Shown here: one piece after another, positions 2,847-54,082 of the stretch
How positions within the stretch are numbered: position 1 is the stretch's first letter
How the letters are laid out: the number at the start of each line of letters is the position of its first letter
Assembly (NCBI RefSeq): GCF_900112245.1
Contig: NZ_FOYX01000001.1
Span: forward strand, 1,413,856 to 1,477,855
Source: Maribacter stanieri
GTDB taxonomy: Bacteria; Bacteroidota; Bacteroidia; Flavobacteriales; Flavobacteriaceae
DNA: 64,000 nucleotides
Direction: 5' to 3'
The notes under the pieces: generated by a model
What the model saw: the letters and a program-made list of their open reading frames with translations, nothing else
What the model was told of the DNA's origin: nothing
Database searches by the model: none
Translations under genes and position numbers: made by a program

Positions 2847-4238
2847 TTATAACAATTTCATTTCGGTTGGGTTCCAATCAACTGGCTGTTTTCTAGAGTA
2901 ACTTTCATTTGCCAATAATGCAGCTCCGGCAGCTCTAAGACCAAATTTTGGGTCTTGTATTACTTTACCGTTTGTTCTTATGTTGGTAAAGAAATTATAA
3001 AAATGATCATAATGTGCTCCCTTATAATCTCTTGGTGCTTGCCAAGTAGTTGTACCAGTGGCTAAATTGCTTAATCTGGTATCTAGTTTTTTAGAGGCGT
3101 ATTCTTTTTTTATTTGTGCTTGCATGTCTTCAGTAAAGGAAATTAAAGAATACCCACTTGGTTCCATACCCAGCTTTGAGCGTTTAACAGTAACTGAATT
3201 TTGACCTATTTCCATTTCACCTTCGGTGCCAATTAGTTTAAAGCCACCACCACCGCCACTACCTGCAATGAAGTTAATACGAAAAGCAGCGTTAAAAGGC
3301 GCATGTGTTTCTGTTTTTGGATAATCATAAAGGGTAATAGATACATCCGGCACATCTCTACCATCTTTCCAATAACGGAGGCCGCCAGTCGCCAAAGCTC
3401 TATTTGGTCCATCAGAACTTATAACATAGTTTAATGTAGAAAATGCATGGACAAATAAATCACCTGCAACTCCGGTACCGTAATCTTGATAGTTTCTCCA
3501 TCTAAAAAAACGATTGTTGTCATAAGCTACTTTTGGTGCACTACCCAAAAATGTATCGAAATCTACTGTTTCTGCATCCGCATCTGTAGGTATTGGATAT
3601 TGCCAAGCTCCTTCTGACGAGTATCTATCATTATACATATCTAGCATAACAATATCACCAATTGCTCCATCTTCATACAATTCTTTTGCCTTTTCATTAC
3701 CTAAAGAAGACATTCCTTGGCTACCTATTTGACAAATTTTGCCAGAACTTTTTTGTGCTTTTATAATTTCTTGTCCTTCATTAAAATTTTGTACCATTGG
3801 TTTCTCACAATATACATGCTTACCCGCTTTTAAAGCGGCAACGGTAATAGTTTGGTGCCAATGGTCTGGTGTAGCAATTAAAACAGCATCAATATCTTTT
3901 CTATTTAGAATTTCGCGATAATCTCGTGTCACGAAAATATTTTGTCCCCATAGCTCTTTTGCACGTTCAAGTCTTCCTGTATATAAATCGCATGCTGCAA
4001 CTATTTTAACGCCATCAACCTGTAATGCAGATTGTGTGTCGTATATGCCTTGAATACCTGTACCTATTAAGGCAATGTTAATTTGATCATTATTTGTATA
4101 GTGCTCAAAAGAATAATTTCTTTTTAATATTTGAATTTTATTTGTAGCGGCAGCCAGTAAAAATGGTGATGTACTTATTGCAGCTGAGGTAAGCGAAGCG
4201 CGTTTTATAAACGATCTTCTCGTATTTTTTTTATTCAT
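2847..4238 (-). CDS. Gfo/Idh/MocA-family oxidoreductase with Tat signal
   Basis: This 463-residue protein has a twin-arginine signal near the N-terminus (NTRRSFIKRAS, Arg7-Arg8) and so is probably exported folded. A Rossmann fold follows, with GxGxxG at residues 59-64. The Gfo/Idh/MocA signature EKP is at 145-147, in YCEKPM, with ATPDHWH just before it. The C-terminal part is a Gfo/Idh/MocA substrate domain containing a Gly-rich loop (AGSGGGGGFK). The family does NAD(P)-dependent oxidation or reduction of sugars and polyols; the substrate cannot be told from sequence. It stands alone, with no sugar-catabolic operon around it. Confidence 0.92.
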   Translation of the reverse strand: MNKKNTRRSFIKRASLTSAAISTSPFLLAAATNKIQILKRNYSFEHYTNNDQINIALIGTGIQGIYDTQSALQVDGVKIVAACDLYTGRLERAKELWGQNIFVTRDYREILNRKDIDAVLIATPDHWHQTITVAALKAGKHVYCEKPMVQNFNEGQEIIKAQKSSGKICQIGSQGMSSLGNEKAKELYEDGAIGDIVMLDMYNDRYSSEGAWQYPIPTDADAETVDFDTFLGSAPKVAYDNNRFFRWRNYQDYGTGVAGDLFVHAFSTLNYVISSDGPNRALATGGLRYWKDGRDVPDVSITLYDYPKTETHAPFNAAFRINFIAGSGGGGGFKLIGTEGEMEIGQNSVTVKRSKLGMEPSGYSLISFTEDMQAQIKKEYASKKLDTRLSNLATGTTTWQAPRDYKGAHYDHFYNFFTNIRTNGKVIQDPKFGLRAAGAALLANESYSRKQPVDWNPTEMKLL

Positions 4239-24098: not shown

Positions 24099-25871
24099 AT
24101 GAATAATTTAGAGGAATTTTACACCCAACGCGTACAAAAGTTTGATGAGCTTATAGAAGCCTTAAATAAGAAACTATTTTTATTTAGCACGCTGCGGTTA
24201 CTAATCTTTTTAGGTACCATCGCTGCACTTTATTTCGCTTCGGTAAATGCAAAATATGTAGTTGCCGTATTATTTGTAGGTATACCATTGTTCTTATTTT
24301 TAGTAAGTAAGTACACAAATCTAAAACTTCAAAAAGCTAAAATTGAAGAGTTGCGAAATATCAACTTGGTAGAATTGCAAGTGCTAAAAAGAGACTTTTT
24401 TAAATTGCCTAACGGAAAAGAATTTGCCGATGACATTCATTTTTTCAGTCAAGATATAGACTTGTTTGGTGAAGGTTCTTTTTATCAAATTTCTAATAGA
24501 ACAAAACTTGCTGAGGGTAGCCTTTTATTGGCCGATATCTACAAGGAAAATTCAATAAAAGATATTGAAGAAAAACAAGAAGCTATTGTTGAAATTGGAA
24601 GGAATGTAGATTGGCGACAAGAATTCTCAGCTATGGCCGCTCTAACTAAAACAGAAACATCTACCCATACTATTGTTAAATGGTTAAAGGATTATAAGCC
24701 ATTTGTGCCCAAAGCAATGAAATATATTCCTTTGGTTTTTTCATTATTGTCAGTGGCTATTTTCAGCGCTTATTTTTTAGACCTGTTGCCAGAATCCGCA
24801 TTAATTTTTTGGTTGGCCTTAGGTATGGTCATTGTAGGTGTCTTTACCAAAAAAGTAACAAATTTGGGACAGAGTGCCACCAAAATGAAATCTACGTTTG
24901 ATCAATATAATCAGTTGTTAGCTATGATAGAGCAAACTGATTTTACGACTGATCTATTGAAGAAACAGAAGTTAAGCATCTTAAGTAACGGCGATGATAA
25001 TTCTAAAGTGCTCAAAAAATTCGCGTCTCTTTTAAGTAACCTAGACCGTAATAATAATCTTCTGTATTTAATATTTGCTAATGGGTTTTTTCTACGGTCA
25101 CTAACAGATTGTCTTGCTATAGAAAAGTGGATAGATGAACATGGTAAAAGTGTAGAAATATGGTTCAATACCATTGCATTCTTTGACGCCTATAGTAGTT
25201 TAGGGAATTTTGCTTTTAACCATCCGAATTTTACATATCCGACGATTACAAATGACGGAGTGGTATTGAAATCTAAAAATGCAGGTCACCCGTTATTAGA
25301 CCCAGCAAAAAGTATATTGAATGATATTACTATTGATGGCGGACAGTTTTTTATCATTACTGGTGCAAATATGGCTGGTAAGAGTACATTTTTGAGAACG
25401 GTATCACTGCAGATTATGATGGCAAATGTAGGGTTACCAGTTTGTGCAGAAGCAGTAAGTTATTCCCCTATAAAACTAATTACTAGTATGCGTACCACAG
25501 ATTCATTGACAGATGATGAATCGTACTTCTTTTCAGAATTAAAACGACTTAGTTATATCGTAGATGAAATTAAGACCGATCGCTATTTCATTGTTTTAGA
25601 TGAAATCTTGAAAGGAACAAATAGTACCGATAAGGCTTTAGGTTCAAGAAAATTTGTAGAGCGATTGGTAAAAAGTAAATCTACAGGGATTATTGCTACG
25701 CATGACCTAAGTCTTTGCGAAGTCGCTAATGAGCACCCAGCTGTAAAAAATCATTATTTTGATGCTGAGATAATAGATAACGAATTACATTTCGATTATA
25801 CTTTTAAGGACGGAATCTGTCAGAATATGAATGCTTCTTTTCTCTTAAAAAAGATGGGAATAATTGAGTAA
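24099..25871 (+). CDS. Membrane-anchored MutS-family ATPase
   Basis: I use the ATG at 24099; the frame is open from a TTG at 24090. The protein of about 590 residues has two hydrophobic segments near residues 28-70 and two more near 210-255. The MutS ATPase domain is C-terminal: Walker A GANMAGKST (422-430), the SYFFSEL signature, Walker B FIVLDEI and the switch GIIATHD. It lacks the mismatch-recognition domain I of MutS1 and the Smr nuclease of MutS2. It is therefore unlikely to be the canonical mismatch repair protein, and its DNA substrate and role are unknown. Confidence 0.88.
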   Translation: MNNLEEFYTQRVQKFDELIEALNKKLFLFSTLRLLIFLGTIAALYFASVNAKYVVAVLFVGIPLFLFLVSKYTNLKLQKAKIEELRNINLVELQVLKRDFFKLPNGKEFADDIHFFSQDIDLFGEGSFYQISNRTKLAEGSLLLADIYKENSIKDIEEKQEAIVEIGRNVDWRQEFSAMAALTKTETSTHTIVKWLKDYKPFVPKAMKYIPLVFSLLSVAIFSAYFLDLLPESALIFWLALGMVIVGVFTKKVTNLGQSATKMKSTFDQYNQLLAMIEQTDFTTDLLKKQKLSILSNGDDNSKVLKKFASLLSNLDRNNNLLYLIFANGFFLRSLTDCLAIEKWIDEHGKSVEIWFNTIAFFDAYSSLGNFAFNHPNFTYPTITNDGVVLKSKNAGHPLLDPAKSILNDITIDGGQFFIITGANMAGKSTFLRTVSLQIMMANVGLPVCAEAVSYSPIKLITSMRTTDSLTDDESYFFSELKRLSYIVDEIKTDRYFIVLDEILKGTNSTDKALGSRKFVERLVKSKSTGIIATHDLSLCEVANEHPAVKNHYFDAEIIDNELHFDYTFKDGICQNMNASFLLKKMGIIE

Positions 25872-45378: not shown

Positions 45379-47757
45379 CTAGAAGTGTTTTTGACCTGAA
45401 AACTCCATTGCTTCTCCTTTTCCAAAACCAAAACTAATACCTAAGGTTACAAAGCGACCTCTTTGACTAAAATCTCTTAAATAGTATTCTGGTTGGCTGG
45501 TAATACTTTCGCTGATACGTGAAGCGAAAACGTCTCTAACACTTAAATTAACTATTGCCTTTCCTTTAAAAATTTTCTTTCGTGCCCCAAAATCCATAAA
45601 TATGTTTTCAGTGATTTCTTGTTGTAACGTTCTATACCCTGAGCGGTAATTTCCAATAAATTCTAAATCAATATCGGCTGGTAATTTAAACTTGCTAGTA
45701 AGTCTTGTGGACCACTGGTCTCCTTTAAAATCAAACGAATTCCCTTCAAAATCTCCTTCTCTGGTAAAGTGACTGTAGTTAAAATCATTCGTAAAAGACA
45801 ACCAATTTGCAGGAATATATTTCGCATTAAATTCAATACCGGTTGTATTGTTAATACCAACATTTTCAGGTCTAGATATACTTACATTGTCTTCAAACGC
45901 TACAATACGTTCCACAACATCTTCTGTATGTCTAAAAAAGACACCAAGATTCATAGAAACCTTGCCTATTTTATAGATACTGGTAACCTCATAACTATCT
46001 GTGAATTCTGCTTGCAAATCTGCATTACCCGTACTAATGCTGAAATTATTTCTAATGTTGTAAAACGGATTTAAATCCCAGAGCCTCGGCCTGAATATAC
46101 GTTTAGAATAGCCTGCTTGCAGCGAAAGGTCATCGTTAACTTTATAGGAAGTATGCCCACTTGGAAAAAGATTACTATACTTTTTATCATTACTGACATT
46201 TGTGTTTTGTAATAGCGTAGCAACATCAGTGTCTTCAAATCGTAATCCTACTTTTAAGCCCCATCTATCACTTTCGTATGCGGTGGTTCCATAAATACCA
46301 AGTACTTTTTGAGTCCATTCAAAAACATTGGTTAAATCAGGATTTTCAATGAAATTTCCACCATTGAAATCACTTATTGCAAAATCATTCTCTACATCGT
46401 TAATTTGATATTGAGCACCCGTTTCAAGAGTAAATTTCTCTGAAAAAGGATGCGTGTAATCTGCCTTGAACGTATATTCTGCTTGGCTAAAATCTGTTCT
46501 ACTACGTTGCATCATATCATCTTCATTACCTATGGTAGTGGTATTTGTAAAATCTGATGTTTGATCTTTTGCAAAAAGATTTCCAGTAGCACTTAATAAT
46601 AAAGACTGCTCATCATTGCCTTCAAAATCTTTTTTATATTGAAGTTCGTATGAGTATTTAGGGTTGGTGGCCGTAGTCAACTCTGTACGCCTAAAAGCAT
46701 CTGTTAATGTGTTGCTAGAATTTAATGTATTAAAAATAGCATCAGCATTTTCTTTTTCCCATTCGTATGCAAAATTTCCGGATAATGTAATTACGTTGAG
46801 GTCGTTAATGTGGTAATCTGTTCCTAGAATAAGATTGAAAAACGTTTCGTTCTTATCATTTTTTCCAATGCTGCTAATATAAGTGTCATCTATAAGATTC
46901 CTATTTTCGGTCTCCTCGTCACTAGGAAACGTTCTGCGACCAAAACCTAACTGGCTAAATAGATTGAATTTTTCTGTTCTTCGGTTAAGACTTAAACCAA
47001 TACTATGATTGTTAGGTATGCCCGTATTTAAAGTTACGGCACCATTCAACCCTTTTTTCTCTTCTTTTTTAAGTACTATATTGATGATGCCAGAAGTACC
47101 TTCTGCATCGTATTTTGCAGATGGGTTTGTAATTACCTCAATACGCTCTATCATATCTGCCGTTAAGGTTCCCAAAGCATTTCCCTGCTCATTGGCTATT
47201 ACAGATGGCTTGCCATTTATAAGCATTTGTACACCTTGGCTACCTCGTAAACTTATTTGTCCTTCAATATTTACATTAACTGACGGTACATTGTTCAAAA
47301 CTTCTAATGCGCTGGCACCCGTACTACTTAAGTCTGCACCTACATTAAAAACGCGCTTATCTAATTTAAAAACGGTCTGGCTAATTTCGCCTTGCACTAC
47401 AACTTCATCCAATTGCTGGGAATCTTCTGCAATAGCTACCGTACCTAAATCAATTTTACCGTTTACAATTTTAGGATTGTCAAACCTTTTGGTAGTGAAA
47501 CCTATAAAACTGACTTCAATATAAAATTCTTGTGCATTGATTTCTAACACAAAGCTCCCATCTTGTAGGGTGGTAGTGCCTACAATAGGTTTTTGGTCTG
47601 TAGGATTCCCAACTAAAACCGTTGCAAATTCAATAGGGCCACCGTCATTAGCTTCTACTATTTTACCGGTAATAGTTGTTGTATTTTGAGCTATTAAAGT
47701 ATTGACGCCTATAAATGAAACGAACAATAATGTTAATAAAGTAAGTTGATTATGCAT
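45379..47757 (-). CDS. TonB-dependent-receptor-like outer-membrane beta-barrel protein
   Basis: The 792-residue protein has a signal peptide (LFVSFIGVNTLIAQ), a carboxypeptidase-like regulatory domain (about 28-110) and a plug domain (about 125-230: SALEVLNNVPSVNVN, IERIEVITNPSAKYDAEGTSGIINIVLKK). A barrel of the OMP_b-brl_3 type (about 380-790) follows. No SusD-like partner is near. It is divergent from a LytS/LytTR two-component pair across 158 bp that contain four phased boxes, so the pair likely controls this receptor. The ligand is unknown. Confidence 0.92.
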   Translation of the reverse strand: MHNQLTLLTLLFVSFIGVNTLIAQNTTTITGKIVEANDGGPIEFATVLVGNPTDQKPIVGTTTLQDGSFVLEINAQEFYIEVSFIGFTTKRFDNPKIVNGKIDLGTVAIAEDSQQLDEVVVQGEISQTVFKLDKRVFNVGADLSSTGASALEVLNNVPSVNVNIEGQISLRGSQGVQMLINGKPSVIANEQGNALGTLTADMIERIEVITNPSAKYDAEGTSGIINIVLKKEEKKGLNGAVTLNTGIPNNHSIGLSLNRRTEKFNLFSQLGFGRRTFPSDEETENRNLIDDTYISSIGKNDKNETFFNLILGTDYHINDLNVITLSGNFAYEWEKENADAIFNTLNSSNTLTDAFRRTELTTATNPKYSYELQYKKDFEGNDEQSLLLSATGNLFAKDQTSDFTNTTTIGNEDDMMQRSRTDFSQAEYTFKADYTHPFSEKFTLETGAQYQINDVENDFAISDFNGGNFIENPDLTNVFEWTQKVLGIYGTTAYESDRWGLKVGLRFEDTDVATLLQNTNVSNDKKYSNLFPSGHTSYKVNDDLSLQAGYSKRIFRPRLWDLNPFYNIRNNFSISTGNADLQAEFTDSYEVTSIYKIGKVSMNLGVFFRHTEDVVERIVAFEDNVSISRPENVGINNTTGIEFNAKYIPANWLSFTNDFNYSHFTREGDFEGNSFDFKGDQWSTRLTSKFKLPADIDLEFIGNYRSGYRTLQQEITENIFMDFGARKKIFKGKAIVNLSVRDVFASRISESITSQPEYYLRDFSQRGRFVTLGISFGFGKGEAMEFSGQKHF

Positions 47758-47824
47758 ATTAAAAGTTGATGAGTTTGTATGTAAAGATGCATTTTACTTT
47801 TATGTTTTAATAGCTAAATTCTGC

Positions 47825-47895
47825 AAACGACAAATGTTATAGTGTAAACGACATCGTCATATTAAATGGCGTTTACCAGTAATTTATTGTCGTTG
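47825..47895. promoter_or_regulatory. Four phased LytTR-type boxes between OMP gene and LytS/LytTR genes
   Basis: Related 8-bp boxes start at 47825 (AAACGACA), 47846 (AAACGACA), 47867 (TGGCGTTT) and 47888 (TGTCGTTG). They are spaced exactly 21 bp apart, two helical turns each. The first two are direct repeats and the last two are the inverted form (AAACGCCA, CAACGACA). LytTR-domain regulators bind pairs of direct repeats about two turns apart, so two dimer sites in opposite orientation serving the two divergent genes is the simplest reading. Confidence 0.7.
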
Positions 47896-47915
47896 ACGGT
47901 TTTGTTGAATTGCTT

Positions 47916-48971
47916 ATGTCTGTAAAACGTTATTTTTATAAGATGACCTTTATCCCATTTTTTAAAAATACAACTAGAAACGAAATTCTTTTTCAGATTC
48001 TATTGCATATTGTGGTATTTTTATTTTTTTCTTTTGATAGGTATGAACCTGAAATTCAAGGGTTTAAAATCGTGACTTTTCTTAACTATGCCTTGGGTGC
48101 CCTTGTGATAAATTATGTGTTGTTACCTCGATTCTTCTATCAAAAAAAATACATTCTCTTCTTTTGTTGTGTAGCTGTTTTGGTAAGTATAATTATGGCT
48201 TTTGAAGAACTTGTTTTGGAACAAATATACTATCCAGATACAAGGGCAAAATTTTTCCCCGGGGTAGTTTATAGTCTATTAGATGTAATGCCCGTAATTT
48301 TGATTTTAGTGGGATTTAAATTTGCATGGGACGCCTCTATAAAACAGTTGGAAGTGGAGGAGCTTAGGACGTCGGTCAAAGAAAGTGAATTGTTATTTTT
48401 AAAGTCCCAGATAAACCCGCATTTTTTGTTCAATAATCTGAATAATCTATATTCATATGCCATAGAACAATCGCCTAAGACACCATCTATTATACTTGAG
48501 CTATCTTCGGTTTTGCGGTATATGCTATATGACTGTAGGGCCAAATTTGTTGGACTGGGAAAGGAAATTGAACATTTGAAAAATTTTACCCAGTTGAATG
48601 AATTACAGATTGAAGAAAGAGGTAAGGTAAGTTTTCAAACAAAACATATTAAAGACAATTATGAAATTGCCCCTTTAATTTTATCTGTTTTTATAGAAAA
48701 TGCATTTAAGCATAGTACGGCTAGCCAGGCCGATGGTATATTTATAGATGTAAATATTTCATTAGATGATAAAGGATGTTTAAATTTTGAATGTAGAAAC
48801 TCCTTTTTAGAAACTACAAATACAGATAAGCTTTCTCATGGTATAGGTCTGCAGAACGTAAAAAAACGATTACAACTTTTATATCCCAATGCACATAAAA
48901 TGTACATTAATGAAGATCAAAATATATACTACGTTCATTTGAAGTTAATGTTAACACAAGGTAGCATATGA
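47916..48971 (+). CDS. LytS/YehU-type sensor histidine kinase
   Basis: The protein of about 351 residues has four membrane helices (about 20-140), then a His_kinase (LytS-type) domain with FLKSQINPHFLFNNLNNLYSYAI, where His169 is the phosphoacceptor, and a HATPase_c-like end (FIENAFKHS, GIGLQNVKKRL). The open frame extends to a TTG at 47910, but I use ATG 47916. Its stop overlaps the response regulator start by 4 bp (ATGA). The sensor has no obvious extracellular ligand domain, so a membrane-embedded signal is likely. Confidence 0.93.
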   Translation: MSVKRYFYKMTFIPFFKNTTRNEILFQILLHIVVFLFFSFDRYEPEIQGFKIVTFLNYALGALVINYVLLPRFFYQKKYILFFCCVAVLVSIIMAFEELVLEQIYYPDTRAKFFPGVVYSLLDVMPVILILVGFKFAWDASIKQLEVEELRTSVKESELLFLKSQINPHFLFNNLNNLYSYAIEQSPKTPSIILELSSVLRYMLYDCRAKFVGLGKEIEHLKNFTQLNELQIEERGKVSFQTKHIKDNYEIAPLILSVFIENAFKHSTASQADGIFIDVNISLDDKGCLNFECRNSFLETTNTDKLSHGIGLQNVKKRLQLLYPNAHKMYINEDQNIYYVHLKLMLTQGSI

Positions 48972-49675
48972 TAAAGTGCATTATTATAGAAGACCAACCA
49001 CCAGCACAAAGAGTGTTGAAAAAATATATTTCTGATATTGGAAACTTAGCGCTTAAAGCTACTTTTGCCGATGCCCTGTCAGCTATAGATTTTTTAAAGA
49101 CCAATACCATAGATTTGATTTTTTTAGATATTCATTTACCTAAAATTTCGGGTATTGATTTTTTAAAAGTTGTAAAGCACCAACCTAGCATAATATTAAC
49201 TACGGCATTTTCAGATTATGCTTTGGAGAGTTATGAATATGATGTGGTAGACTACCTACTTAAACCATATTCCTTTGAACGTTTTGTACAAGCGGTCCAT
49301 AAGGTGCCTACTAAAACTTCAGCCTTTTCTAAAAAGAATAAAGGTGTGGGGAATAATGAATTTACAGACGTAGTGTTTATCAAATCTGGATATGAACACA
49401 TCAAAATAGAAGTAGATGACATTTGTTACATTCGTTCAGATGCAGATTATACTGAAATTCATACGAAAGACCAGAGACATCTCTCTCAAGAAACATTACG
49501 TTACTGGCAAGAATATTTGGATTCACAAAAATTCTCAAGAATACATAAATCGTACATATTAAATATTTCAAAAATCCTTAAGATAACAGGTAATCAAATA
49601 CAGTTAGAAGAAAATATTCTTCTTCCTATAGGTAGGGCTTATAAGGAGGATTTTATGAATAGTATTATAAAATAA
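48968..49675 (+). CDS. LytTR-family response regulator
   Basis: The 235-residue protein has an N-terminal receiver domain with phosphoacceptor Asp54 in IFLDIHLPKISG, conserved Lys in YLLKPYSFERF, and a C-terminal LytTR DNA-binding domain (about 130-235: EVDDICYIRSDADYTEIHT, FSRIHKSYILNISKI). It is translationally coupled to the LytS gene. It probably binds the phased boxes between its operon and the outer-membrane receptor gene. It ends where the convergent DUF1593 gene ends. Confidence 0.95.
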   Translation: MIKCIIIEDQPPAQRVLKKYISDIGNLALKATFADALSAIDFLKTNTIDLIFLDIHLPKISGIDFLKVVKHQPSIILTTAFSDYALESYEYDVVDYLLKPYSFERFVQAVHKVPTKTSAFSKKNKGVGNNEFTDVVFIKSGYEHIKIEVDDICYIRSDADYTEIHTKDQRHLSQETLRYWQEYLDSQKFSRIHKSYILNISKILKITGNQIQLEENILLPIGRAYKEDFMNSIIK

Positions 49676-51277: not shown

Positions 51278-54082
51278 ATGATATTGAAATCTTATTTTAG
51301 TGTAATATTTCTTTTTACATTGTGTATTTCAGCGCAAGAGTTGCCGCCAATACAGAATTTTACTCCTATAGAATATAATGCCGGTAATCAAAATTGGTCT
51401 ATAGACCAATCTAATGATGCCTCTGTGTACTTAGCCAACAATAGTGGTTTATTGGCATTCAACGGTACATCGTGGAAGTTATATCAAGTTCCTTACGGTA
51501 CTCCTGTAAAATCCGTTAAGGTTGTTGATGATAGGGTTTACACTGGTAGTTACATGGAATTTGGATATTGGAAAGGAAATGAATTTGGGACTTTAGAATA
51601 CACTTCACTATCAGCTCATTTAAATACTTCCCTTATAGAAGATGAGGATTTTTGGAATATTACGCATTTTAAAGATTGGATTTTATTTCAATCCTTAGAT
51701 AGAATTTATATCTACAATGTTAAGAATGCTTCATTTGAAATATTGGAGGCAGAGACCGTAAGTCCTAAAATATTTGAAGTTGGAAATAAATTATACTTTC
51801 AAAAAATTGGTAAAGGTTTATATACGCTAGATAATGGAATACCTATTTTGGTATCTGATGATGCAGTTCTTAAAAATACGGGTATTGTTGGTGCTTTTCA
51901 ATCCGCAACTAAAATTCTAGTAATTACGGAACTTGGAGTATTTTATTATTTAGATGGTTCTCAGCTGATAAAACGGGAAATATCAGCAGAAATAGATTTA
52001 TCAACAACCAAAATTCATAGTACTTTACGTCTAAATGATGGTTCTATTATATTGGGAACGATATCTAAAGGTATCTTTCATTTAGATGCTAATGGGATGT
52101 TGATAAGGCATATTAATCAAGAAAAAGGGCTAAACAATAATACAGTATTATCATTATTTCAAGATTACGACCAAAATTTATGGCTGGGGCTAGATAATGG
52201 TATAACCATCATAAATTTAGACTCACCATTTAAAGAATATATAGATCATGTTGGTGCTATTGGTGTTGTGTATACTGCTAAGAAATTAGGTAACATTTTA
52301 TATTTAGGTACTAATCAGGGTTTATTCTATAGAAGAACCTTTGGGGTAGATGGGTTTCAACTTGTAAATGGTACACAAGGCCAAGTATGGTTATTAAAAG
52401 AAATTGACGGTACATTGTTCTGTGGTCATCATAACGGTACTTACGTTATAGAAAATGAAAATGCAACCAAGATTTCTAATGAACCAGGAACTTGGGATAT
52501 TCAATCATTAAAAAACCATGAAGATTTATTGATACAAGGAAACTATAAAGGTTTAAGTGTATTGGAACGAAAAAATAATCAATGGCAATACCGTAATGAT
52601 ATTATAGGATTTGATAATTCTAGTAGGTTTTTTGAATTTGTTGGGGAACATCATTTACTTGTAAATCATGATTATAAAGGGATATTCGATTTAACGGTTG
52701 ATTCAGAATTTACTAAAGTCATAGAAAGCAATCATAAAGAATCTAAAGGTATTGGTTCAAGTTTGGTTCGCTATAGAGATGAAATTGTTTACAGTACTAT
52801 AAACGGAGTTTTTAAATATAATGCGGAACAACATGATTTTCTGAAAGACTCTGTACTGACCACTAAATTCTTTAATACTGATGAGAGTATTGTTGGTATT
52901 CTACAATCCACCAATAATTCAGAAAGGTTATGGGGATTTACAAATGATAATATAATTAGTGTTTCTAATGGGCATTTAAGTAATGAACCACAAACAGTAA
53001 AAATTCCAATTCCTAAATCTTTTAGACGCAGTATGGGTGTCTTGGGTTTTGAATCTGTGGTTCATTTAGAAAAGGAACTTTATTTAATTGGAATCTCTAA
53101 TGGTTACGTCACTTTAGATTTACAAAAAGTAAAACAGAAAGATTATCAAATACATATTAATTCCATTTATAGAAAAACACACGAATCCCCTAAGGTGGAT
53201 ATTGTTCTTAATGATACTCAAGAATTTAAATATGCAGAGAATACTATAAATTTTAATTACAATGTTACCGAGTATGATAAGTACACAGAGGTATACTACC
53301 AGTATGAATTAAATGGGTTGTATGATGAATGGAGTAGTTGGTCAACAAACCCTAATGTTTCCTTTGAAAATTTACCATATGGTTCTTATGAATTTAAAGT
53401 AAGAGCAAGAGTGGGCAATGAGTTATCTAAAAACATAGCCACTTATGCGTTTGTTATACAACGACCTTGGTATATATCTTACTGGGCAATTTTATGTTAT
53501 ATTTTACTTGGGGCTCTGCTTTCTGTTTTAATTCATAAACTATATAGAAACCATTATAAAAGGCAGCAGCAGCAACTCATAAAAGAAAATCAAAGGCTTT
53601 TAAAACGTAAAAAATTAAAAAGCCAAAAGAGAATTATTCAAATTAAGAATGAGCAGTTACAAGAGTTGGTTGAAAGTAAGAATAGAGAATTGGCAATCTC
53701 TACCATGAGTATTATAAAGAAGAATGAATTTTTAAATTCAATCAAAGACAAGTTGAAAAAGAGTGATGAAAATCCTCAAATAAAATCAGTTATTAGAACT
53801 ATAGATAGAAATATTAATAACGTTGACGATTGGAAGTTTTTTGAAAATGCTTTTAATAATGCCGATAAAGACTTTTTGAAAAATGTAAAAGAGAAGCATC
53901 CAGATTTATCTGCAAACGACTTGAGATTGTGCGCATACTTAAGATTGAATTTATCCTCTAAAGAAATTGCTCCACTTTTAAATATATCTGTTAGAAGCGT
54001 AGAGGTGAAAAGGTATCGTTTGCGAAAAAAAATGAATTTAGCACATGAAGCTGGTTTAACCGAGTATATCATCAATTTATAG
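51278..54082 (+). CDS. Transmembrane two-component-like regulator: beta-propeller, Y_Y_Y and LuxR-type HTH
   Basis: The 934-residue protein joins, in order, a signal peptide, a long periplasmic beta-propeller region (about 20-640, with WLGLDNGITIINLD-type blades), a Y_Y_Y domain (about 670-725) and one membrane helix (about 730-755). A basic coiled coil (about 758-850) and a LuxR-type HTH at the C-terminus (870-930: LSANDLRLCAYLRLNLSSKEIA, SVRSVEVKRYRLRKK) follow. No kinase or receiver domain is present. It therefore likely senses a sugar in the periplasm and acts directly on DNA. The GH16 gene starts 306 bp downstream. Confidence 0.9.
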   Translation: MILKSYFSVIFLFTLCISAQELPPIQNFTPIEYNAGNQNWSIDQSNDASVYLANNSGLLAFNGTSWKLYQVPYGTPVKSVKVVDDRVYTGSYMEFGYWKGNEFGTLEYTSLSAHLNTSLIEDEDFWNITHFKDWILFQSLDRIYIYNVKNASFEILEAETVSPKIFEVGNKLYFQKIGKGLYTLDNGIPILVSDDAVLKNTGIVGAFQSATKILVITELGVFYYLDGSQLIKREISAEIDLSTTKIHSTLRLNDGSIILGTISKGIFHLDANGMLIRHINQEKGLNNNTVLSLFQDYDQNLWLGLDNGITIINLDSPFKEYIDHVGAIGVVYTAKKLGNILYLGTNQGLFYRRTFGVDGFQLVNGTQGQVWLLKEIDGTLFCGHHNGTYVIENENATKISNEPGTWDIQSLKNHEDLLIQGNYKGLSVLERKNNQWQYRNDIIGFDNSSRFFEFVGEHHLLVNHDYKGIFDLTVDSEFTKVIESNHKESKGIGSSLVRYRDEIVYSTINGVFKYNAEQHDFLKDSVLTTKFFNTDESIVGILQSTNNSERLWGFTNDNIISVSNGHLSNEPQTVKIPIPKSFRRSMGVLGFESVVHLEKELYLIGISNGYVTLDLQKVKQKDYQIHINSIYRKTHESPKVDIVLNDTQEFKYAENTINFNYNVTEYDKYTEVYYQYELNGLYDEWSSWSTNPNVSFENLPYGSYEFKVRARVGNELSKNIATYAFVIQRPWYISYWAILCYILLGALLSVLIHKLYRNHYKRQQQQLIKENQRLLKRKKLKSQKRIIQIKNEQLQELVESKNRELAISTMSIIKKNEFLNSIKDKLKKSDENPQIKSVIRTIDRNINNVDDWKFFENAFNNADKDFLKNVKEKHPDLSANDLRLCAYLRLNLSSKEIAPLLNISVRSVEVKRYRLRKKMNLAHEAGLTEYIINL

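Follow-up and report, generated by a model that had tools for sequence, protein, structure and literature searches.

The locus studied here raises the question of which genes are controlled, and by which regulator, through four related boxes lying between a gene for a TonB-receptor-like OMP and a LytS/LytTR gene pair of Maribacter stanieri. In the window, i.e., the whole stretch of 64,000 nucleotides that was analysed, the OMP gene is on the minus strand (45379..47757) and encodes a 792-aa protein with CarbopepD_reg_2, Plug and OMP_b-brl_3/TonB_dep_Rec barrel domains. On the plus strand, a gene for a LytS-like histidine kinase (47943..48971; 342 aa, His_kinase PF06580) adjoins a response regulator gene (48968..49675; 235 aa, receiver PF00072 and LytTR PF04397), an arrangement that defines a LytS/LytTR two-component system. 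Residues D9, D54 and K99 of the regulator are invariant across its 14 copies in the genus. ATG 47943 is the most probable start of the kinase, because its orthologs start there and the predicted +1 falls there; with this start, the gap between the OMP and kinase genes measures 185 bp, and not 158 bp as given in the preliminary description. Our analysis makes it highly probable that this gap is a dual LytTR promoter, self-activating as in agr P2/P3 and built of mirror-image halves, and the regulator encoded by the adjoining operon is very probably the protein that would bind both of them.

The 8-bp boxes start at 47825 and 47846 (both AAACGACA), 47867 (TGGCGTTT) and 47888 (TGTCGTTG), the first two being identical and the last two inverted, as had been described. 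Once oriented, the repeated unit extends beyond these 8 bp and is of 10 bp, TG[T/G]CGTT[T/G][A/G]C. Pair A is composed of a proximal unit (box 1, 47823..47832, TGTCGTTTGC) and a distal one (box 2, 47844..47853, TGTCGTTTAC), both on the minus strand and pointing left, to the OMP gene, while pair B is composed of a distal unit (box 3, 47867..47876, TGGCGTTTAC) and a proximal one (box 4, 47888..47897, TGTCGTTGAC), both on the plus strand and pointing right, to the LytS/LytTR operon. Within each pair, unit starts are 21 bp apart and the spacer is of 11 bp; the 10-bp units of pairs A and B are 13 bp apart. As documented LytTR sites consist of repeats of 9-11 nt separated by spacers of 11-13 nt (PMC4847170, excerpt), both pairs have the geometry of LytTR direct repeats and are predicted to be bound as such. 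When 8-bp boxes are scored at 21-bp steps with the last two inverted (maximum 32), the window gap reaches 30/32, a score attained by 0/20000 versions of these 185 bp with shuffled bases. Across the 4.46 Mb of the home genome, the pair pattern with at most 3 mismatches is found in these two places, one per strand, and no further match at this threshold was found; a backward-read control pattern also gives 2 matches, so that the number of matches is uninformative and their places are informative. The matrix scan of the home genome, which covered the 64-kb window with a threshold of 12, gave one weak extra match (at 24584, score 12.5).

Each pair is followed by a candidate promoter. In a flavobacterium, positions -12 to -5 are occupied by the -7 element TAnnTTTG (PMC9723704, excerpt), and a -7-like element is present 33 bp from the proximal unit both on the OMP side (47782..47789, minus strand, CATCTTTA, score 5.0/7) and on the kinase side (47931..47938, plus strand, TATTTTTA, score 6.0/7), each of them being imperfect. 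It is this identical distance that makes the two halves mirror images. The predicted +1 of the OMP gene is 47777, which leaves a 20-nt leader, and that of the kinase gene is 47943, i.e., the A of the ATG itself, predicting a leaderless mRNA. In the family as a whole, a TAnnTTTG-type element, as expected of a Bacteroidota sigma-A promoter, is found at a fixed distance of 32-33 bp past the proximal unit on 77/81 kinase sides and 51/80 OMP sides, for a shuffle expectation of about 2.4 per position; the remaining 29/80 OMP sides are without a good -7 element at this distance. The -33 region is poorly conserved, which fits activator-dependent promoters. Among kinase upstream regions, the first in-frame ATG is exactly at the predicted +1 in 56/87 and within -1 to +2 of it in 71/87, no in-frame ATG having been found in 7/87. 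In F. psychrophilum, leaderless mRNAs represent 5.5% of those mapped (PMC9723704, excerpt).

We propose that the LytS-like kinase would phosphorylate the LytTR regulator, encoded by the second gene to the right, and that the phosphorylated regulator would bind each pair as a dimer whose polarity points to the promoter served, where RNA polymerase would be recruited. The design on each side would be two 10-bp units 11 bp apart, then 32-33 bp, then the TAnnTTTG-type -7 element. Pair A would thereby switch on the TonB-receptor-like OMP, and pair B the kinase and the regulator themselves, creating a positive feedback. The observations on which this model is based are the boxes, their orientation, their 21-bp period, the 32-33 bp to the -7 element on both sides, and the linkage between pairs and genes across the phylum.

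This linkage was established with the relatives of the regulator. A close ortholog (E <=1e-85) is present in 13/36 genomes of the genus, including the home genome, amounting to 14 copies with 62-94% identity to the regulator of the window. Wider draws of genomes were poor in orthologs (9/395 and 5/395, the home genome being included in each, 20/396 in another order and 1/8 in one genus). In the contig scan, the best 80 of 305 relatives were retained, so that counts lean to close relatives; among these best 80, records are labelled Flavobacteriaceae, Saprospiraceae, Lewinellaceae, Cytophagales and others. A motif-free test, searching upstream of the kinase for 9-bp repeats with at most 1 mismatch at spacings of 12-44 bp, was applied to 79 regions reduced to 71 non-redundant ones. 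A direct repeat at 21 bp is found in 37/71 regions, compared with 0-7 at every other spacing, and in shuffled regions the mean is 2.45 at 21 bp (maximum 7) and 1.5 to 3 across spacings. This is the only family test independent of the matrices, which were trained on at most 71 of the regions that they score. Conservation of the boxes and of their 21-bp spacing in orthologous gaps, the check that had been set beforehand, is thus observed.

The set was then enlarged with 28 loci from further genomes and 13 from the genus, giving 122 loci, of which 2 were too short and 23 were dropped as near-duplicates. Of the 97 remaining regions, with matrix cut-offs of our own choice (8 for pair A, 10 for pair B), 83 have a recognisable pair A and 91 a recognisable pair B, with 81 having both. 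The highest of 568 shuffle scores is 5.1 for pair A and 15.0 for pair B, so that some weak pair B calls may be due to chance. Pair B is unrecognised in 6/97 regions (L141, L183, L194, L196, L201 and L207). The four-box mirror layout, considered as unusual in the preliminary description, is therefore common in the regulator's own family, as 81/97 regions display it; it is also found outside, since S. aureus agr has AgrA direct repeats before each of its divergent promoters, P2 and P3 (PMC4227749, excerpt). Within the 36 genomes of the genus, the pair pattern gives 27 matches versus 52 for the backward control, so that, here again, only their places are telling: 12/27 lie in OMP/kinase gaps, and the 23 genomes without a regulator ortholog hold 7 matches, none of which is in an OMP/kinase gap. 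This cross-genome comparison supports the earlier proposal of two back-to-back LytTR-type direct-repeat sites, one for each predicted promoter and linked to this regulator.

The pairs also appear to follow their genes. Pair A is present in 73/73 regions with a divergent OMP match and in 10/24 regions without such a match, the other 14/24 being devoid of it; OMP matches for L188-L215 are based on a flank of about 300 bp, and Kriegella aquimaris (L159) is included in the 73, as in the 81, though its assigned pair A is probably false. In this species, the OMP gene lies about 1.4 kb from the kinase and has its own pair at L159:2066, and the kinase also has a pair; the inter-pair distance of 101 first attributed to L159 was rejected as a wrong assignment. 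Half of the ten regions with pair A and no OMP match are Eudoraea-group loci (L138, L145, L152, L169 and L170), in which the pairs are 25 bp apart. A PepSY_TM-like gene, so named by likeness to a scanned protein, adjoins the array in L138, L145 and L152 (genes were viewed in four of these loci, L169 excepted). As for the five others, L171 has another large upstream gene and L163, L190, L197 and L212 are short loci or contigs. OMP relatives of 30-34% identity, in tandem downstream of the regulator (L128, L147 and L183), each have their own pair and -7 element, and the pair B that belongs to the kinase in L183 reaches a score of only 7.1. OMP genes that have moved away thus retain their own pair. 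When the 80 named loci (717865 bases) were scanned with the matrix, 14 extra pairs scored above 17; 8/14 have a good -7 element (>=5/7) at 31-34 bp, and the other 6 have none and may be due to chance.

One Maribacter genome (G001) is informative as to the loss of the system. Its OMP, 90% identical to that of the window, has neither the kinase nor the regulator next to it, and the search for a regulator ortholog in this genome gave none (best match E 1.3e-47). Its OMP gap contains no pair above a matrix score of 12, and inspection by eye shows that the proximal unit retains 9/10 bases and the distal one 4/10. In the window, a Sde182-like gene belongs to the same stretch as the kinase and the regulator, and a gene for a Y_Y_Y/LuxR-type protein is found at 51278-54082; in G001 (L218), the whole kinase/regulator/Sde182-like stretch is absent between the OMP and Y_Y_Y genes. 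Several results count against the main model: the persistence of the proximal unit in G001 without the regulator, the 19 LytTR domains of the home genome, which make another binder possible, the 6/97 regions without a recognised pair B, the presence of pair A in 10/24 regions without an OMP match, and the imperfect -7 element on the OMP side.

Whether the two pairs work separately or together is a further question. It had been suggested that one regulator could loop or bridge both promoters. An obligate bridge is disfavoured, as each pair occurs alone, in 10/97 regions for pair B and in 2/97 for pair A, where no pair B was recognised, and as displaced genes have a pair of their own. The 21-bp phasing initially attributed to all four boxes holds, and is conserved, inside each pair, and it does not extend to the step from box 2 to box 3, which is local: the facing units are 11-16 or 24-26 bp apart in 62/81 regions. 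Of the 81 regions with both pairs, 27 have an A-to-B distance of 11-16 bp, 35 one of 24-26 bp, 4 one of 4 bp and 15 another value, with 17-23 bp occurring in 1/81; the other distances include 7, 7, 22, 29, 38, 49, 49, 72, 83 and at least 100, their assignment being unsure in several cases. The four regions of the 4-bp class (L148, L167, L174 and L178) show a possible further kinase-side unit at another 21-bp step, and this class may belong to the 25-bp class.

One tentative possibility is that the four boxes form a single cooperative switch, in which two dimers, back to back and in contact, would make the receptor and sensor promoters fire together. The concentration of the distances in two classes speaks for it, as does their constancy: in regions with an OMP start, the standard deviation of the A-to-B distance is 1.0 bp in the 27 short-class regions and 0.7 bp in 28 long-class ones, versus 4.8 and 17.8 bp, respectively, for the stretch between pair A and the OMP start, although starts projected by tblastn add scatter to this comparison (the pair-B-to-kinase standard deviations are of 12-20 bp for that reason). 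The inter-pair spacing looks to be under selection, kinship being uncorrected in this comparison. Spacers of 14 bp resemble one another hardly more than shuffled sequences do (0.293 vs 0.274), but in those of 25 and 13 bp the resemblance exceeds that of shuffled ones (0.363 vs 0.268 and 0.385 vs 0.325), so that the constancy may partly reflect common descent. Roughly one helical turn separates the two classes. A quick tree of 66 regulators implies 5 switches between them, of which well-supported branches force at least 2; on a fuller tree of 97 regions with all labels, 10 changes are needed for the short class and 13 for the long one. The same spacing recurs beside other genes, namely 14 bp between YceI and beta-lactamase-family genes in Maribacter arcticus and 25 bp beside the PepSY_TM-like gene in Eudoraea. 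Against the cooperative switch, 15/81 regions are at other distances, mostly off helical phase, periods of 11 and 11.5 give a concentration at least as good (R 0.81 and 0.82) as a period of 10.5 does (R 0.77), with kinship uncorrected, and each pair is also found alone. A helical phasing between pairs is not claimed, given these 15/81 regions and the small number, 2 to 5, of independent switches. On balance, we consider it doubtful that a tetrameric switch, with dimers at about 14 or 25 bp, couples the receptor and sensor promoters and is portable to other divergent gene pairs.

The reading of two self-activated promoters was also weighed against the possibility that the boxes are bound by another regulator, either another LytTR protein or the Y_Y_Y/LuxR-type protein. 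The 19 LytTR domains of the home genome leave room for the former, and the Y_Y_Y gene still adjoins the OMP gene in G001, where the proximal unit persists. However, G001, which is without the regulator ortholog, has lost the pair despite the presence of both the OMP and Y_Y_Y genes, and the genus matches lie in OMP/kinase gaps in 12/27 cases, while none of the 7 found in the ortholog-free genomes is at such a gap. In addition, the units show the GTT core and the two-turn period of LytTR sites. Binding by another regulator thus appears improbable. Slightly less probable still is that the pairs are repressor sites through which the regulator would shut both promoters: the sign of the control is not given by binding sites alone, but 32-33 bp lie between the end of the pairs and the -7 element, so that neither this element nor the start is covered, and the poor conservation of the -33 region is that of activator-dependent promoters. 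Finally, a chance arrangement or a decaying, functionless repeat, for which we found no support in our data, can practically be dismissed, as no shuffle reached the score of the window and the array is kept across several Bacteroidota families.

The dual self-activating promoter that we favour can be compared with known systems. Its identity with a LytTR Regulatory System (LRS), in which a membrane partner inhibits the LytTR regulator, was considered and ruled out, the partner being here a His_kinase. By definition, the LytTR regulator of an LRS has a membrane protein as its partner in place of a kinase (PMC6193735, excerpt). The LRS-like operons of Bacteroides have 11-bp repeats with an 11-bp spacer, 11 bp before a promoter with the -7 element TATCTTTG (PMC6193735, excerpt). 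They share with the present sites the 11-bp spacer, the position of the repeats upstream of a TATCTTTG-type promoter and a presumed autoactivation, and the distance from the repeat to the -7 element is of 34 bp, as summed from a table row of the excerpt, versus 32-33 bp here. They differ by their membrane-spanning LytTR protein and its NfeD/DUF2154 partner, whereas a receiver-LytTR protein, a His_kinase partner and a second, divergent target are found here. In E. coli, YpdB belongs to a LytS/LytTR-type system that activates a gene, yhjX, via a 10-bp direct repeat, but the excerpt of PMC4847170 describes one target promoter, whereas a site precedes each of two divergent promoters in our case.

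The closest likeness is with S. aureus agr P2/P3, in which a LytTR regulator uses direct repeats upstream of two divergent promoters, one of them driving its own operon, with promoter-proximal repeats centred near -60 (PMC4227749, excerpt). The same layout is found here, a direct repeat preceding each divergent predicted promoter, one of which would drive the regulator's own operon. The differences are that the AgrA sites are separated by SarA sites in agr, where the second product is RNAIII (PMC4227749, excerpt), whereas in our case a spacing of 11-16 or 24-26 bp between pairs prevails, the promoters are of the Bacteroidota type and the other gene encodes a TonB-receptor-like OMP. The general design, of the agr kind, is thus already known, and the same design recurs in many distant relatives. 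No description of this system or of its sites in Bacteroidota was found in a search by title and abstract start, with subscription literature mostly outside it. With our results, the divergent, self-activating design known from agr is extended to a distant phylum whose promoters differ. They also provide a cis code that can be read across Bacteroidota for a LytTR regulator, TGTCGTTNRC-N11-TGTCGTTNRC-N32/33-TAnnTTTG, which could serve to list, from sequence alone, the genes targeted by a scattered receptor/sensor system. As the two sites are tightly spaced, coupling between the promoters can be tested directly.

A few loci deserve mention in their own right. Maribacter arcticus has a second copy of the kinase and regulator, in a neighbourhood with five pairs above a score of 27 (L216:3734, 6350, 12846, 12894 and 15088). 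The pair at L216:15088 is the second-copy kinase's own, and the other four have a good -7 element. One pair is at the start of a DUF5916 gene, another lies about 400 bp before a BD-FAE esterase gene, which is followed by a GH3 gene, and two back-to-back pairs, 14 bp apart, constitute the four-box array between the YceI and beta-lactamase-family genes. On a second contig of this species, a pair precedes a GH3 gene (L217:6636; -7 score 4.5/7). The M. arcticus kinase beside the OMP is split over two frames (L111:3476-4501), and in the second copy the kinase occupies a single open frame of 342 aa. In L182, two separate kinase matches (1810-2589 and 3716-3943), with about 1.1 kb between them, look like pieces of an interrupted gene; this locus, labelled Thalassovita, a pseudomonadote, is probably a misbinned Bacteroidota contig. 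In Aureispira (L163, L168 and L187), the regulator is tail to tail with the kinase, and pair B can thus not feed back there through a shared operon; the array, with 25-26 bp between pairs, is retained upstream of the kinase, and the OMP gene is divergent in L168 and L187.
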